Shown here: in pieces, positions 30,480-38,805 of the stretch | How positions within the stretch are numbered: position 1 is the stretch's first letter | How the letters are laid out: every line of letters begins with the position of its first letter | Source: Lachnospiraceae bacterium | GTDB taxonomy: Bacteria; Bacillota; Clostridia; Lachnospirales; Lachnospiraceae | Length of the DNA: 47,143 nt | NCBI GenBank assembly: GCA_017556805.1 | Contig: JAFYMC010000015.1 | Location: 1 to 47,143 of the forward strand | Reading direction: 5' to 3' | Program-made: the position numbers and the translations under genes | Notes under the pieces: generated by a model | What the model was told of the DNA's origin: nothing | Database searches by the model: none | Seen by the model: the letters and a program-made list of their open reading frames with translations, nothing else

Positions 30480-30507
30480 TAAAGTCCCGAAGGAAACATG
30501 CCGATAA
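30480..30507 (+). promoter_or_regulatory. Sigma-D (sigma-28) promoter of flagellin 1
   Basis: TAAAGTCC (30480-30487), 12-base gap, GCCGATAA (30500-30507): a near-perfect flagellar sigma consensus. The start point should be near 30513, giving a leader of about 125 bases. Confidence 0.85.
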
Positions 30508-30536
30508 CATAAGCAAATCAATGAATGACAGTTGTG

Positions 30537-30605
30537 CTGAAAGGACTCAGTAACTACTCGAACGGATTCGAAGACTGTATTTCATGTAAAAAATACAACC
30601 TATCA
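30537..30605 (+). promoter_or_regulatory. Conserved flagellin leader with two GGA-loop hairpins (copy 1)
   Basis: Hairpin CTGA-AAGGAC-TCAG (30537-30550), hairpin TCGAA-CGGA-TTCGA (30558-30571), then a weaker TGTATTT/AAATACA hairpin (30576-30597) and CAACCTATC. Both first loops present GGA, 21 bases apart, the form bound by CsrA/RsmA. The same elements occur in the same order before flagellin 2. Confidence 0.65.
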
Positions 30606-30637
30606 AATTTTAATCCAAATTCGAGGAGGGACTAATT

Positions 30638-32305
30638 ATGGCAATGATTGTTCAACACAACATGCAATCCATGAATGCCAACCGTATGTTAGGCATTGTA
30701 TCTACTAATCTTGCAAAGTCTACGGAGAAGCTTTCTTCCGGTTACCGCATCAACCGTGCAGCAGACGATGCAGCCGGTCTTGCAATTTCCGAGAAAATGA
30801 GAAGCCAGATTCGTGGTCTTACTCAGGCATCCACCAACGCAGAGGACGGTATTTCCTTAATCCAGACCGCAGAAGGTGCTCTTAACGAATCCCACAGCAT
30901 TTTGCAGAGAATGCGTCAGCTTGCCGTACAGGCAGCCAACGGTACCGAAACCGATGACGACCGAGGAAACATCCAGGACGAAATCGAACAGTTGCAGGAC
31001 GAACTTGACCGTATCGCAGAAACCACCGAGTTCAATACCATGAAGCTCCTCGACGGTTCTTTCGATGGCATCGCTTCCACCAACACCACCGCAGGTCCGA
31101 AGTACGGACAGTACAGCGGTATCCACGGTGCATTTATTACATCCAATATTGTAGGCGTAGAAATCGCTACGAACACTTCCGCTACCGTAGGCGGTGAGTC
31201 CGCAATCTGGGATGCTGCAGGTACCTCTTTAACCATTAACCTGGCAAACAACAAGACCTACACTCAGGCAGATATTGACAACTTAATTAAGAATGCAAAG
31301 CAGGAAGACTCCATCGCAAAGAATACTCCGGCAGAGGTTACCATGAAGTTTGCTACAGGTGTATTTACTGCAAGTGCAGACACTTCCGAGAAGACAACGC
31401 CGACCGTAGCAGGCGCAAAAGCAACCATTGAAGATAATTTGGTTGCTGATGATGAAGGAAACTTTGTCGGCGCAAACATTATAAAAATCACTTCCAACAA
31501 GTACGGTAAGGATTATGACATCGACATCGAATTCCTTTTCACTGCAAACGAAGGAAAGGAGGAGGCAAAGTTAAACACTGCTCCGACCTATACCATGGAT
31601 GCTGATGATTTAGACGGTGTTGTGGCGGCAGATACTGACAGAGCCGGTTATCAGATTACATTAATGTCCGGTAAGGAATATTCCGCAGAGGACATCGAAG
31701 ACTTACTTGCCGAGGCAGGTTTAAACGTATCTGTTGAGTTAAGCGGCGTTACCACCGCAGGCACCTCCGGTACCGATGCACCAAATACCTTATTCATTAC
31801 CGATTCTTCTGTAACCAAAATATTTAAATTGGACGGCGGTGCCGGTCTCGGTGACGAGGATGCATTCCTCACCCAGAACTGGTACGACAGCGTAAACTCC
31901 ACCGGCGGCATGAGACTCCAGATTGGTGCTAACGAAGGTCAGACCATGAACTTTAACATCGGCGACATGAGTGCAGCTGCATTAGGTGTCAGCGGTCAGA
32001 GTGTTCGTGTGGATGAGCAGGACAGAGCGTCCCAGGCTATCACCACCATCGATAAGGCAATCGAAATCGTTTCCAAGCAGCGTGCCGAACTTGGTGCCGT
32101 ACAGAACCGTTTGGAGCACACCATTGCAAACCTTGACACCTCCGCTGAGAACCTGCAGACCGCAGAGTCCCGTATCCGTGATGTAGATATGGCTGCAGAG
32201 ATGGTAGAGTACAGTAAGAACAACATTCTTTCCCAGGCATCCCAGTCTATGTTGGCTCAGGCAAACCAGGCTACCCAGGGTGTACTCTCCTTGTTACAGG
32301 GCTAA
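30638..32305 (+). CDS. fliC: Flagellin 1
   Basis: 555 residues. The conserved N-terminal D0/D1 region (MAMIVQHNM to [11 protein letters not shown], about 1-148) and C-terminal D1/D0 region (about 430-555, ending [17 protein letters not shown]) form the filament core. The middle (about 150-420) is the exposed, variable part. No signal peptide, as expected for type III export. AGGAGGG lies 9 bases before the ATG. Sigma-D promoter and GGA-hairpin leader indicate late flagellar expression with post-transcriptional control. It is a close paralogue of flagellin 2: the ends are almost identical and the variable middle has the same motif order ([40 protein letters not shown]). Confidence 0.96.
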
Positions 32306-32374
32306 TTAATAAAATAAGTTAACTTCACCGTATCGTTCCCCATGTTGATATCCGAAAGGATTAACTGTGTCCCG

Positions 32375-32522
32375 ATAGGTTGAAAATAGGCAAAAGCGTC
32401 TGCGTAAAGCAGACGCTTTTGTCATCTGCGAGTTCACGAGCAGATGTATACGACGAAGTCGTATCTATTTTCATGAGCAAGGAGCGGAGCGGATTGCGAA
32501 TGACCTCTCATTTTCAACCTAT
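32375..32522 (+). ncRNA. Multi-hairpin element closed by a 13-bp perfect inverted repeat
   Basis: ATAGGTTGAAAAT (32375-32387) pairs with ATTTTCAACCTAT (32510-32522). Inside lie the terminator-like hairpin 32392-32420, CATCTGC/GCAGATG (32423-32446) and ATACGAC-GAA-GTCGTAT (32448-32464), then a purine-rich GAGCGGAGCGG stretch. The result is a closed multi-way junction of 148 bases between two flagellin genes. Besides this element, the 468-base gap holds the second sigma-D promoter and leader. Confidence 0.5.
32392..32420 (+). terminator. Terminator hairpin downstream of flagellin 1
   Basis: Perfect 12-bp stem AAAAGCGTCTGC/GCAGACGCTTTT with a 5-base loop, ending in four T, 87 bases after the stop codon. 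Confidence 0.75.
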
Positions 32523-32589
32523 ATTTTGCTGTTTTCCGTATAAAACTCCTATAAAATCACCACATTTTGTAATTTTTTTCATTTTTCTA

Positions 32590-32617
32590 TAAAGTATTCC
32601 TTTTATCCGGTCGATAT
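32590..32617 (+). promoter_or_regulatory. Sigma-D (sigma-28) promoter of flagellin 2
   Basis: TAAAGTAT (32590-32597), 12-base gap, GTCGATAT (32610-32617): same layout as the flagellin 1 promoter, with one change in the -10 box. Confidence 0.75.
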
Positions 32618-32645
32618 AGCTTACAAGTGAATGAAACACAGCCAT

Positions 32646-32713
32646 ACTGAAAGGACTCAGTTATCACCCGAACGGATTCGAGGGGCATGTATTCATCTTG
32701 AAAATACAACCTA
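32646..32713 (+). promoter_or_regulatory. Conserved flagellin leader with two GGA-loop hairpins (copy 2)
   Basis: ACTGA-AAGGAC-TCAGT (32646-32661), CGAA-CGGA-TTCG (32669-32680), then TGTATT/AATACA (32688-32708) and CAACCTATC. The GGA-to-GGA distance is 21 bases, the same as in copy 1, although the sequence between and around the hairpins has drifted. Confidence 0.65.
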
Positions 32714-32773
32714 TCGCAAACAAAAACAAGCTCATACAGAAGAGCTAATTTCAACTATCGGGAGGTAACGACT

Positions 32774-34681: not shown

Positions 34682-36745
34682 ATGGAATACGAAGAGTCAT
34701 ATTTTAAAAAACAAGCGAATAAAAACACGTTCTTAATGTGGACCACCCTGAATGTTATTTTCACCGTTCTGTACATTCTGGAAATGATAAAGGGCGGTCG
34801 TACTCCGCAGTATCTTGCGGTATTCCTGTCCCTTTGCTGGATTCCTTATCTTATAGGCCTTTTGGTTTTGAAATTCAAAGGATTTGATACTCCGCTTTAC
34901 TGCGAAATTGTATCCGCAGGCTACGGAATCCTGTACTTTTTCGTGCTGATGACCACAAAGACCAACGTTACCTACGGTTACATATTCCCGGTAGCCAGCC
35001 TTTTGGTTCTATATAAGAAGAGGAAGCTGCTGATTCGCTGGGGCATATTAAATATCTTGATTCTTCTGGCATACCTTATCAAAAACAATTTTCATGACAT
35101 TACCGATGCGGAAATCCAGATTGGTGTAACCGTATTATGCTATGTTGCTTATGATATTGCGATTCGTCACATGACAAGAACAGAAGAAGCCATGCTTGGT
35201 TCCGTAAAGGCTGACCTTGCCCGGGTGGTACGCACCATTCAACAAGTAAAAAATGCCAGTCACTCTATTGTGGACGGAGTTACCGTAGTCAGCGAGCTTT
35301 CCGACGAAAACAAAGACAGTGCGGATTTGGTTGTAAACAGTATGGAACAGCTTTCCGAAGATAATCACATCCTACAGGAAAAAACCCTTTCCTCTCTGGA
35401 TATGACCAAGCAAATCAGCAACCAGGTAGAAAATGTCGCTGCTATGGTACAGGAAATGGTTGCCCTCGTGGAAGAGTCCGTTTCCCATTCCCAGACCAGT
35501 TCCGAACAGTTGGCTGATGTCGTAAGCTCCACCAAGGAAATGGCGTTACTTTCCACCGAGGTTGAACAGATTTTACAAGAGTTTCAGAACGAGTTCGATA
35601 TGGTAAAAGCCGAGACCGGCACCATTGAAAAGATTTCCGGTCAAACCAACCTTCTTGCATTAAACGCTTCCATCGAGGCAGCAAGAGCCGGAGAAGCAGG
35701 TAAAGGCTTTGCGGTTGTTGCGGATGAGATCCGTGACCTGAGTACCGGAACAAAGACTTCCTCCACCAGTATTATGAATGCTTTAGCTAATCTGGAGTCC
35801 ACCGCAGAGCGTATGACCGACTCTATCACAAAGACATTACAGCTTATCAACGCTACTTTAGATAAGATTACCTTAGTAGATTCCAGCGTTGCCCGCATTG
35901 CTACCGATGCAGCACGCCTAGGCGACAACGTTCAGGTCATTGATACCGCAATGCAGGAAGTGGGTGCCTCCAACCGTAACATGGTAGACAACATGAATCA
36001 GGTAACCGCCGTCATGGGCGCTATGACCGCAAGCATTTCGGAAGCGGATGACAGCACCCGCACCATGCGCAGTAAATACGCAGAAACTTCCGCTAACGTT
36101 ATTTCCATCGGCAACATCGTAGGACAACTTATGGGTGAATTGGGTGCCGGCGGATTTATGACAACAGAAGATATCCATTCCGGCATGTATTTCACCCTAG
36201 AAGAAGTACTGGATACCACAAAGGAATACAAGCAACAGGTAACCAATGTCAGAGGATCTACCATCCTTTCAAAATTGCCTACAGACTTCCGCGTTGTTTC
36301 CTCTTCAGCAGTATACAACCTTTCCGTTATTGTAGATAACCGGATTTACCGCTGGGAATCCATTCGTGTCGAGATAAAAGATGCTATGCTATTCCTTACC
36401 GTAACCGGTAACCCGCAAGTATTTAACCGTAGGAAATACCGTCGCGGTCCGTTATTCAACCAATGTCACTTTACTATCGACGGTTCGGCTATGCCTTATA
36501 TCGGTACCATGGTAAATATCAGTGCCGGCGGCTACTCCTTCTTCTCCGACGCAGAGGAATTAAAGGATGCGAAGGGCAAACTGATCGAGCTGGAAATCGA
36601 CGACTTCCCATTATTAGACGGCAAAGAGTTAAGCGGTACCGCCATTCGCGTAACCGACAACAACGGCTTGTACATCGTGGGATGCCGCATGCTGTCGGAC
36701 AACGCAGAAATCGACCGTTATATAGAATCCAGAGCCGGAAAATAA
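34682..36745 (+). CDS. Chemoreceptor-PilZ fusion: six-helix membrane part, MCP signalling domain, YcgR-like PilZ module
   Basis: 687 residues. Residues 15-165 hold about six transmembrane helices without a large extracellular domain. Residues 170-490 are the methyl-accepting coiled coil with the CheA/CheW-contact tip [19 protein letters not shown] (319-337). Residues 505-580 look like the YcgR N-terminal domain. Residues 581-687 are a PilZ domain with the c-di-GMP signature intact: RRKYRR (583-588, RxxxR) and NISAGG (612-617, [D/N]xSxxG). A receptor that can report c-di-GMP to the chemotaxis kinase is the natural reading. GGAGG lies 8 bases before the ATG. It follows the flagellins and has its own terminator. 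Confidence 0.93.
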
Positions 36746-36870: not shown

Positions 36871-38805
36871 CTATTCCGCTTTTTCTCCTTGCAGAATCGG
36901 CCAATTCAACTGATTCTCCCAAATAGACTGTCTCGGTTCTCCTGTTTTATCACTGCCGGTCAGCCAGTACATATCATATCCTTCTACCTTCGGCAATCCC
37001 AAACTCGTACCGGACTGTACCATAAACGTGTAAAATTTGAAATCCTCTTCTTCTTCAATCATCAAACGAACCGGAATATACCGATAACTTACGTCATCCT
37101 CCGGAATATAAACCGTATACACAGGATATAAGGTAAGATAAGGATCATCTACACCAAACTCTCCAAAAGAACGATGGTCATTCAGAGGGAAAAGTAAGTC
37201 AGCATCGCTTTCACTGTAAAAGCCTTCACAAGTAATGACAACTTCCTTGCCGTATACCGCTTCTGCCGCTTCTTTAATCGCACCTTCTCCCAGTATATAA
37301 GTATCGGCAATGCGCTTTAACCAAAGACCCATTTCATCCCCAAGCGTAATCTTTTCCCGAAAATCCGGTGACACGAGAGATCTGGTATTCGGCTCTAATG
37401 CCTCATACAAGCCCGCCATTCCGGAAACCTCGTAGGTCTCCAACGGCTTAATTACTTTCGGTAAATATGCCTGCAGTGTCAGCTCCTTGTTTTCCGTTTC
37501 CTGACCCGGTATCGGTGTCGGCGTCTCCATCGGATGCGGAGTAGCGGTCGGTTCCGGCGTCGGTGTCGGTCCCTGTGTCGGTATTATAACATATCCTTCC
37601 GGATCCCATTCACAAATAAATGCAGCCGAAGGCTCTCTAAAACCACCGTCATTCCAACAATACGGACGGCTCGTCCAAATCATAGCATACTCTTCTTCAT
37701 TGTAATTGTCTAAGTCTGCCTCATACCAATTCTCATAGCTCACCGCTTCATTGGTTACCCACTTCCATTCACCCTCGGTCTCTTCGTCCGTATAGCCGAA
37801 ATATGCACATGTAAAGCCGGCTTGTATCATTTGGTCGTACAGATAATCATTTTCTTCCGGACTCATAATCGTTGCAAGATGTCCGCCATTCTCCGTACAA
37901 TATGCATTTATTTGCTCCCAGCTTCTTCCGTCCACAGGAACAAACCGATAGGTATGGCCTTCCCAGTTATATGTTACTTTGTCAGAAGCACCCTGATTAT
38001 CATCCTTCCCGGCAAAATCCCCCTTAAGGAACTCCTTTACCTTTTCTATCAATTCTTCCTTCCACGCCTTTTCCTCTTCGGAAAAATCATCCCCATTCTC
38101 GGATAAATCCTTCTGCAAATAGGATGCGGAAAGTTCACTTAAATCCTCTGTCTCAATTTCCTTGCTTTCGCCGTCAAACTCATACTTTCCGTCTGCCGTC
38201 TCCACCAGGACTTCCATGGTACCTGCCTTCGCTATTCTCTTATCGTTGGTACCTTCCGGCTTTACATATACTTCACCGGCAAAAGTAAGCACCTTCATCA
38301 CCTTGTTGATGAGCTTGCCCGCCTCGTCCTTTATCTCTCGATATACTACCTCAAACTGGGTACCGCGCACCGACATGACAGAACCCGGAGTAACCACCTC
38401 GTATCCGCTTTTGTCGGAAAGCTTCTCCTTGATATCCGAAAATACGGCACCGTATTCCAGTTCAATTCTCGTCATACTGTCTTCTTCCGTACCCTCGGCT
38501 ATCAACACCAGCTTGGAATCTTCATCTACAACAACATATTTATCATCATCCAGGCGAAGTGTAACCTTAGCGCCCTTTTCCGTAATCAACTCATCCTCGG
38601 ATTGCAAATTCATATTAACGTAGGCCTCTAATCCTTCTTTGCCGTCCCGGTTGACCACAGCCTTACCGGTAATCTCCGTAATACGGATGTTACGGTAAAC
38701 ATCTTTCTTTTTACATCCCGCCAGCATGCAGCTTGCCACCAGCAATACCAATATCGGAAGCAACCACAGGCAAACGCCAATTTTCCCTTTCTTCTGTTCT
38801 TTCAA
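36871..38805 (-). CDS. FecR-domain and C-type-lectin-domain lipoprotein with conserved C-terminal domain
   Basis: 644 residues from a TTG start (38805) with AGGAGGAG 8 bases upstream. Signal peptide with lipobox MLAGC (Cys31). FecR domain about 40-200, with the hallmark TPGSVMSVRGTQFEV (139-153). C-type lectin-like domain about 280-400: SWEQINAYC, GGHLATI, EGEWKWV, CWNDGG and AFICEW. Pro/Thr linker 408-435. C-terminal domain about 440-644 with LTLYPVYTVYIPEDD and GYDMYW, resembling the C-terminus of the Pro/Thr protein at 46086-47143. FecR domains sense or respond at the envelope; the lectin fold suggests glycan or protein binding. The gene follows the zinc-binding chemoreceptor by 27 bases. 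Confidence 0.9.
   Translation of the reverse strand: MKEQKKGKIGVCLWLLPILVLLVASCMLAGCKKKDVYRNIRITEITGKAVVNRDGKEGLEAYVNMNLQSEDELITEKGAKVTLRLDDDKYVVVDEDSKLVLIAEGTEEDSMTRIELEYGAVFSDIKEKLSDKSGYEVVTPGSVMSVRGTQFEVVYREIKDEAGKLINKVMKVLTFAGEVYVKPEGTNDKRIAKAGTMEVLVETADGKYEFDGESKEIETEDLSELSASYLQKDLSENGDDFSEEEKAWKEELIEKVKEFLKGDFAGKDDNQGASDKVTYNWEGHTYRFVPVDGRSWEQINAYCTENGGHLATIMSPEENDYLYDQMIQAGFTCAYFGYTDEETEGEWKWVTNEAVSYENWYEADLDNYNEEEYAMIWTSRPYCWNDGGFREPSAAFICEWDPEGYVIIPTQGPTPTPEPTATPHPMETPTPIPGQETENKELTLQAYLPKVIKPLETYEVSGMAGLYEALEPNTRSLVSPDFREKITLGDEMGLWLKRIADTYILGEGAIKEAAEAVYGKEVVITCEGFYSESDADLLFPLNDHRSFGEFGVDDPYLTLYPVYTVYIPEDDVSYRYIPVRLMIEEEEDFKFYTFMVQSGTSLGLPKVEGYDMYWLTGSDKTGEPRQSIWENQLNWPILQGEKAE

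Follow-up and report, generated by a model that had tools for sequence, protein, structure and literature searches.

Paired GGA-loop hairpins and a complementary 3' untranslated element at tandem flagellin genes of a Lachnospiraceae bacterium: a candidate compound regulatory RNA

Tandem flagellin genes and their leaders

The DNA analysed here, which we call the window, is a stretch of 47,143 nucleotides (nt) from a Lachnospiraceae bacterium (assembly GCA_017556805.1, contig JAFYMC010000015.1; G000:C15 in our numbering, in which G, C and L precede the numbers of genomes, contigs and loci). It carries two flagellin genes in tandem, fla1 and fla2, with a sigma28-type promoter before each. The subject of this report is the untranslated leaders of these genes, together with a short conserved element in the 3' untranslated region (3'UTR) of fla1 that is complementary to both leaders. 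The genome (2.9 Mb in 37 contigs, 86% complete) is that of an uncultured gut bacterium, whose closest relatives are metagenome-assembled genomes, several of them from deer and sheep gut. Six matches to Flagellin_N were found in it: fla1, fla2, a third gene, fla3, on contig C30, and single matches on C35, on C29 (shorter) and on C10, the last resembling FlgL.

Both leaders carry the same two hairpins in the same order, hairpin 1 (HP1) and hairpin 2 (HP2), each with GGA in its loop (Table 1). The GGA triplets start at 30543 and 30564 in fla1 and at 32653 and 32674 in fla2, and lie 74-121 nt before the start codons. The identical pair and its 21-nt spacing had been noted from the sequence alone; the coordinates bear this out, and the spacing is held in all 21 fla1/fla2 leaders of the genus. 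A third GGA, placed by the same reading at each ribosome binding site, is present in both Shine-Dalgarno regions, with two copies in fla1 (GAGGAGGGAC) and one in fla2 (GGGAGG). On the plus strand of the window we counted 44 GGA-loop hairpins with a stem of at least 4 base pairs (bp), forming three pairs at a distance of 12-35 nt, and two of these three are the flagellin leader pairs. The minus strand holds 84 such hairpins and five pairs, none of them at a flagellin leader.

The genus was sampled through ten genomes, including that of the window. All have flagellins, and 28 leaders were extracted from them, 21 of the fla1/fla2 type (11 fla1 and 10 fla2, one genome having two fla1) and seven of the fla3 type. 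The sigma28-type promoter layout is common to all 28, with a spacer of 15 nt (14 in L018), and a sigma28 consensus is quoted for Butyrivibrio (PMC3720852; here and below, papers are cited for those parts of them that were accessible). Both fla1-type and fla2-type leaders occur in every one of the ten genomes, so the tandem pair did not arise by recent duplication. The loop consensus for CsrA is ANGGAN, a hexaloop, and it is fitted by all 42 loops of the 21 fla1/fla2 leaders, no relative having lost the GGA. The HP1 loop reads AAGGAC in 15 leaders, AAGGAT in four and ACGGAC in two; for HP2 the loops are ACGGAT (16), ACGGAC (three) and ATGGAT (two).

RNAalifold places the two hairpins on a predicted three-way junction closed by an outer stem. 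The underlying alignment holds 20 fla1/fla2 leaders, 18 of them distinct, with L038 omitted, and the pair counts rest on these rows. Of the cells in the junction 97.7% are paired, compared with 19-42% in slid controls. Changes on both sides of a pair were observed at four pairs and in eight cells, against 1.4 and 2.5 in shuffles, and none of 500 shuffles equalled the alignment in this respect. In L037 the HP1 stem is compensated at two of its five pairs, from CTGA/TCAG to CCAA/TTGG, and two pairs of the outer stem are altered on both sides as well. RNA-level selection for HP1 and the junction is supported by these comparisons. The sequence-only reading had pictured conserved hairpins amid diverged spacers; the hairpins are indeed kept, but so are other stretches, namely the ATGAA/TTCAT arms of the outer stem and the block CAACCTATC downstream of the junction.

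Table 1. Features of the tandem flagellin genes and of the unlinked locus, with the basis of each assignment
Feature	Position	Strand	Basis
fla1 sigma28-type promoter, TAAAG-N15-GCCGATAA	30480..30507	+	sequence; genus layout; Butyrivibrio consensus
fla1 leader three-way junction (predicted); outer stem ATGAA/TTCAT + ACAGTT/GACTGT around HP1 and HP2	30521..30585	+	RNAalifold (20 leaders), pair counts
fla1 HP1, CTGA-AAGGAC-TCAG, ANGGAN hexaloop	30537..30550	+	sequence; stem compensated in L037
fla1 HP2, CGAA-CGGA-TTCG; ACGGAT hexaloop if last A-T pair opens	30559..30570	+	sequence, RNAalifold
CAACCTATC, fla1 leader, invariant, complements 3'UTR element	30596..30604	+	alignment, complementarity
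fla1 Shine-Dalgarno region TTCGAGGAGGGAC; TTCGAG complements HP2 5' arm, GGGAC complements GTCCC of 3'UTR element	30620..30632	+	complementarity, folding
fla1, flagellin, 555 amino acids	30638..32305	+	translation, family match
Small hairpin ATCC-GAAA-GGAT, fla1 3'UTR	32350..32361	+	10-genome alignment (TCCG-n-AAGGAT)
3'UTR element GTCCCGATAGGTTGAAA, proposed seed, 17 nt	32369..32385	+	invariant in 10-genome alignment
Long perfect hairpin after element; possible transcript end	32391..32421	+	alignment; stem sequence differs between species
fla2 sigma28-type promoter, TAAAG-N15-GTCGATAT	32590..32617	+	sequence; genus layout
fla2 leader three-way junction (predicted)	32631..32696	+	RNAalifold, pair counts
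fla2 HP1, CTGA-AAGGAC-TCAG	32647..32660	+	sequence
fla2 HP2, CGAA-CGGA-TTCG	32669..32680	+	sequence
CAACCTATCG, fla2 leader, 10-nt complement of fla1 3'UTR element	32707..32716	+	complementarity
TTTCAACTATCGGGA, overlapping fla2 Shine-Dalgarno; TCGGG also complements HP2 5' arm	32749..32763	+	complementarity
fla2, flagellin, 546 amino acids	32774..34414	+	translation, family match
235-amino-acid protein gene behind sigma28-like promoter	L156 1565-2272, G000:C6	-	translation

CsrA, FliW and GGA hairpins in other flagellin leaders

Neither csrA nor fliW lies in the window, as the sequence-only reading had stated, and a search of the rest of the genome recovered both by family match. The two genes are adjacent on contig C10 behind a FlgL-like gene, in what appears to be a flagellar cluster (its other genes were named by eye), and csrA adjoins fliW in all ten genomes of the genus. 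The CsrA protein scores above the NCBIfam cut-offs, and FliW above the Pfam cut-off but below the NCBIfam ones. Residues 1-66 of the 72 in CsrA align to the Bacillus subtilis entry 1t3o, and the protein also matches 5dmb, which is filed as a carbon storage regulator homolog and which we take to be the FliW-CsrA complex. The RNA-binding pocket's arginine, R44 in the E. coli protein, is part of the conserved CsrA stretch.

Loops of the form ANGGA are described as CsrA sites (PMC4894983), and in B. subtilis and Campylobacter jejuni flagellin is repressed by CsrA and relieved by FliW (PMC6529632, PMC4894983). One CsrA dimer can bridge sites that are 10-63 nt apart, and does so best above 18 nt (PMC7652899); the 21-nt spacing observed here fits this range. 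None of the refuting outcomes named in the sequence-only reading was met where computation could address them: csrA is in the genome, the loop GGA is kept and HP1 shows compensated changes. Control of both leaders by CsrA is in our view supported rather than demonstrated.

We also surveyed 55 of 73 flagellin loci, with start codons assigned by script; the remainder are 15 loci from the genus itself, L080, where the match does not run from the N-terminus, and L106 and L114, which have too little upstream DNA. A GGA-loop hairpin of at least 5 bp was found in 31 of these 55 out-of-genus leaders, whereas 100 dinucleotide shuffles gave 3.4 on average and never more than 7; one of at least 7 bp was found in 12 leaders, compared with 0.4. 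In 25 of the 31 leaders the GGA hairpin sits 32-40 nt before the assigned start codon. The stems are unrelated and the loops similar, for example CATGGATG or CAAGGACG, and these loops resemble the CsrA consensus RUACARGGAUGU obtained by systematic evolution of ligands by exponential enrichment (PMC7652899). From this survey, flagellin leaders of the Firmicutes type would seem often to have a GGA hairpin a short distance ahead of the Shine-Dalgarno. What sets the window's genus apart from the surveyed leaders is its two loops at a fixed spacing, with the GGA 68-122 nt before the start codon. With GGA hairpins in 31 of the 55 leaders, control by CsrA and FliW becomes testable widely.

Several other leaders showed features of their own. 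The fla3-type leaders (L006 1306-1491, L022, L035, L042, L043, L045 and L046) are different and longer, with a conserved AATCCTAGGT; a CCCGAA-AGGA-TTCGGG hairpin is present in them and the antisense sites described below are not. CCTAGGT stretches like those of the fla3 leaders occur in L067, L070 and L077, from a neighbouring group. A further element, GCGGCCGAC, is common to flagellin leaders of Bacilli and Clostridia (L094, L097, L098, L099, L115, L123 and L125), where it lies upstream of the Shine-Dalgarno, about 65-95 nt before the flagellin match; Rfam gave no match in the five of these seven leaders that were scanned.

Complementarity of the fla1 3'UTR to both leaders and to an unlinked locus

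The 3'UTR of fla1 contains a block, GTCCCGATAGGTTGAAA, that is kept letter for letter in all ten genomes, although the following stem and most other parts of the 3'UTR have diverged; the exact 15-mer CCCGATAGGTTGAAA is likewise found in all ten. The leader block CAACCTATC stands downstream of the junction in all 21 fla1/fla2 leaders and has its exact reverse complement in this element. Counted as perfect runs, the element pairs over 9-10 nt with each of the 21, and the longest run with any of the seven fla3 leaders is 6. A second site, CTATCGGGA, lies over the fla2 Shine-Dalgarno, where it forms a 9-nt perfect complement of the element in all ten fla2 leaders; in the window the duplex extends to about 15 bp with one bulge. 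At fla1 the GTCCC of the element can reach GGGAC at the Shine-Dalgarno, and GGGAC is missing in two of the 11 leaders (L025 and L031). Between 32100 and 32780 no sigma70-like promoter was found. Within its own genome CAACCTATCG occurs seven times: in the 3'UTR element (on the other strand), in the fla2 leader, at the second locus described next and at four other places, of which three fall in long open frames and one (L161) in a shorter frame; one of the four is near a frame start.

A second site for the element was found outside the flagellin region. The 14-mer GTCCCGATAGGTTG occurs exactly twice in nine of the ten genomes, with about 0.02 occurrences expected per genome, and the second copy forms a hairpin loop behind the gene for a 235-amino-acid protein that is unlinked to the flagellins. 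Read in the sense of this gene the loop is CAACCUAUCGGGAC, which complements the fla1 3'UTR element perfectly. The perfect runs between loop and 3'UTR are 15-18 nt long, with predicted duplexes of -40 to -47 kcal/mol; among 3000 shuffled 3'UTRs, 27 had a match of at least 10 nt to the second locus, where the observed match is 16. In G007 and G008 the match reaches 18 nt, loop and 3'UTR alike having the letters that extend it. Upstream of the 235-amino-acid gene, seven of nine loci show a sigma28-like promoter or its -10; none appears in the inspected stretch of L165, and in L181 the contig ends too early, the gene copy on another contig of the same genome (L187) having one. The gene on the opposite strand is the same regulator-like gene in eight of nine genomes and a different one in G006, so the loop element goes with the 235-amino-acid gene. 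The protein itself scores over no Pfam cut-off, and neither L156 nor the fla3 locus L006 has an Rfam match at the gathering threshold. Homologues of the protein are present in 178 of 397 family genomes. In ten loci from outside the genus the antisense loop was found in none, and a CGATA-type -10 in most (by eye). As far as searched, the putative antisense system is specific to the genus. The second, unlinked copy is the strongest point for such an antisense layer.

Proposed mechanism, rival explanations and precedents

We consider it probable that the sigma28-driven flagellin leaders act as a compound regulatory RNA, in which CsrA loops, antisense pairing, a sponge and a coupling of HP2 to the Shine-Dalgarno are combined. 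The three-way junction would display two ANGGAN loops 21 nt apart, and most likely one CsrA dimer grips both. FliW and free flagellin would govern CsrA activity, as in B. subtilis, with CsrA staying bound until FliW removes it. CAACCUAUC(G) in each leader, and CUAUCGGGA over the fla2 Shine-Dalgarno, would be antisense to the 17-nt element of the fla1 3'UTR. To judge from the conserved complementarity, pairing with that element, either in trans through a 3'UTR-derived RNA or in cis, may close the ribosome site. The pairing would be strongest at fla2, such that an abundant fla1 message restrains fla2 and itself; we infer a transcript end behind the element. The loop behind a third sigma28-type gene, that for the 235-amino-acid protein, complements the element and its flank over 15 to 18 nt and probably sponges the fla1 tail. 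Finally, the HP2 5' arm may pair with the Shine-Dalgarno flank instead, so that CsrA at HP2 is probably coupled to Shine-Dalgarno pairing; this step, predicted from folding, is the weakest. It is possible that all of these form a closed circuit of untranslated regions, with the fla1 tail antisense to both leaders and to the Shine-Dalgarno, the third message as a decoy, CsrA and FliW meeting on the same leaders and the HP2 arm shared. We put this fullest form forward tentatively, as falling a little short of an even chance.

A number of results weigh against this reading, here and in the folds of the free leaders considered further on. Pairs of the outer stem are broken at three positions, in four, three and one of the 18 rows, and 'further pair types' in the junction do not exceed shuffles, 493 of 500 of which score as high. 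For selection on the stems, as first proposed, covariation gives some support at HP1 and the outer stem, where two pairs each changed on both sides; the HP2 stem never varies within the genus and therefore shows no covariation in the aligned leaders. The argument for RNA-level selection on HP2 would draw instead on its conservation and on the GGA hairpins with unrelated stems elsewhere. When a covariance model of the junction was run over the 397 family genomes, it found the window's own genome and G008, from the same genus, under strict filters that may miss distant forms; the 15-mer CCCGATAGGTTGAAA is likewise present in two of the 397, again the window's own and G008. A whole-region RNAduplex comparison of leader and 3'UTR, covering the window and the 73 flagellin loci, was dominated by long hairpins and did not single out the system, and was replaced by the longest perfect complement combined with shuffles. 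The long hairpin that may end the fla1 transcript fails the terminator scan on the plus strand, because its T run lies inside the stem, and is listed as terminator-like on the minus strand only. At the second locus, G009 has GTCCCGATAGGTTG once, its second copy missing. G006 has the extending letters in the 3'UTR only, with one mismatch between loop and 3'UTR, so that covariation between the two loci amounts to one event at most.

It is possible that CsrA and FliW alone control what are ordinary hag-type leaders, and that the complementarity of the 3'UTR reflects a local fold, a processing signal or coincidence. The evidence for CsrA (the adjacent csrA-fliW, the loops, the junction and the survey) speaks for this view. 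In eight of ten single-sequence folds the element is also paired within its own 3'UTR, to a TTCACC-like arm upstream, and this local pairing could alone explain some of its conservation. In addition, among 3000 shuffles of the 81-nt 3'UTR the 9-nt match to fla1 was reached 176 times, the 10-nt match to fla2 34 times and both together nine times. However, G009 is without the upstream arm and keeps the element exactly, an unlinked locus has a perfect complement in nine of the ten genomes, and the same element is matched at several sites that follow sigma28-type promoters. We regard control by CsrA and FliW alone as unlikely.

CsrA might instead act as an activator, where binding would stabilise the junction and free the Shine-Dalgarno from the HP2 5' arm, with a sign opposite to that in B. 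subtilis hag. In the predicted ensembles of all 21 free leaders the HP2 5' arm and the Shine-Dalgarno region are paired at a probability of at least 0.65, and HP2 itself reaches at most 0.33 in every one. The complementarity of arm and Shine-Dalgarno region is kept despite different letters, as CTCGAA:TTCGAG in fla1 and CCCGA:TCGGG in fla2, with 5-6 perfect pairs in 20 of the 21 leaders. In L037, the leader with the compensated HP1 stem, HP1 has a probability of 0.00. As the HP2 arm prefers the Shine-Dalgarno flank and L037 is without HP1, a static two-hairpin picture is probably incomplete. Against activation, forcing HP2 costs between 0 and 7.3 kcal/mol, being less than 4 (within model error) in 12 of the 21 leaders and 4.2-7.3 in nine. 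The pairing of the Shine-Dalgarno core itself is only modestly above shuffles (mean 0.75 versus 0.64; 0.78 versus 0.53 for the five bases upstream of the core), and the helix between arm and Shine-Dalgarno has a mismatch in L037. The GGA motifs of the Shine-Dalgarno are themselves CsrA-like sites, and the flagellin cases described in PMC6529632 and PMC4894983 are ones of repression. Activation by CsrA seems to us improbable, and given the cost of HP2 and the modest excess at the Shine-Dalgarno, the coupling of HP2 to the Shine-Dalgarno within the compound RNA is proposed as a hypothesis.

That the junction senses a metabolite or serves as a 5' stability element, with the GGA loops incidental, we consider very improbable. 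It is compact, conserved and near the 5' end, and Rfam 15 gave no match in the window at the gathering threshold and none between 30340 and 32900 at an E-value of up to 5; yet GGA is present in all 42 loops and also in flagellin-leader hairpins with unrelated stems elsewhere. A reading at the DNA level, in which CAACCTATC(G) and its reverse complement serve as invertase repeats for flagellar phase variation, is hardly credible, for although the copies flank both fla1 and the fla2 promoter as inverted repeats, these are only 9-10 bp long, every fla1-fla2 region inspected has the same orientation, and the extra copy at the unlinked locus is part of a hairpin loop.

The CsrA part of the compound RNA follows known logic. 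The leaders resemble that of B. subtilis hag, with its Hag-FliW-CsrA loop (PMC6529632, PMC7652899), in their GGA sites, which include the Shine-Dalgarno, in fliW-csrA and in a similar CsrA. Unlike in hag, two loops here lie 21 nt apart on a predicted junction, are shared by tandem genes and are accompanied by the extra candidate antisense elements. The C. jejuni flaA leader (PMC4894983) also has two stem-loops with ANGGA loops, compensation across species, CsrA and FliW; its second loop covers the ribosome site in a leader of 45 nt, whereas here both loops are far upstream. CsrA sites predicted upstream of and over the Shine-Dalgarno of Clostridioides difficile fliC, BS1 and BS2, are similar as well, and neither a junction nor 3'UTR pairing is described in the accessible part of that source (PMC8523840). 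Published genomes of the same family, Lachnospiraceae, have csrA at the flgM locus in all examined and sigma28 promoters for most fliC; CsrA is named only as a possible regulator (PMC3720852), and leader RNA structure or an antisense element is not described in the parts accessible.

For the 3'UTR layer the nearest precedent is FliX of E. coli, a small RNA that derives from the fliC 3'UTR within the sigma28 regulon, pairs with flagellin mRNA and lowers flagellin when overexpressed (PMC10578931). The sites of FliX are inside coding sequences, whereas here the predicted sites are in the leaders and the Shine-Dalgarno, a perfect complement lies behind another sigma28-type gene, and the RNA itself is a candidate. 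The C. jejuni small RNAs CJnc230 and CJnc170 also belong to the flagellar cascade, and one is processed from a flagellar mRNA; they differ in having other parents and in their targets, flgM and the Cj1387c region (PMC11187230). SR1 and ahrC in B. subtilis, although unrelated RNAs, offer a Gram-positive precedent for CsrA aiding antisense pairing, and CsrA was without effect on SR1 and kinA (PMC8501984). That CsrA helps the pairing proposed here would be speculation by analogy.

We found no description of the double-loop junction or of the complementarity among 3'UTR, leader and decoy in the open-licence literature, and no paper there on RNA-level control of flagellin in Lachnospiraceae. Flagellin is expensive for the cell and strongly recognised by the immune system, and a protein and RNA pairing may jointly tune its production. 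If true, the compound RNA would combine the known CsrA-FliW and antisense layers on a single leader in a Gram-positive lineage, and it would name the exact sites to mutate.

Some minor observations concern other parts of the flagellin regions. The intergenic sequence between fla1 and fla2 contains a repeat, GAGCAAGGAGCGNAGCGGATTGCGAATGA, with one copy in the window (32475 onward) and three to four copies in L054, L059 and L060. The flagellin-like gene of the C35 type (MRINHNIS...; L003 and relatives among L013-L029) is without a sigma28 leader. In several genomes it has a hairpin with an AAGGAT loop (GCGT/ACGC type) just upstream, which is imperfect in the window's own genome and, by eye, has lost its GGA in L013, L014 and L016. 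Downstream of fla2 the window encodes a methyl-accepting chemotaxis protein (MCP) with PilZ at 34682-36745 on the plus strand and a FecR and C-type lectin protein at 36871-38805 on the minus strand.

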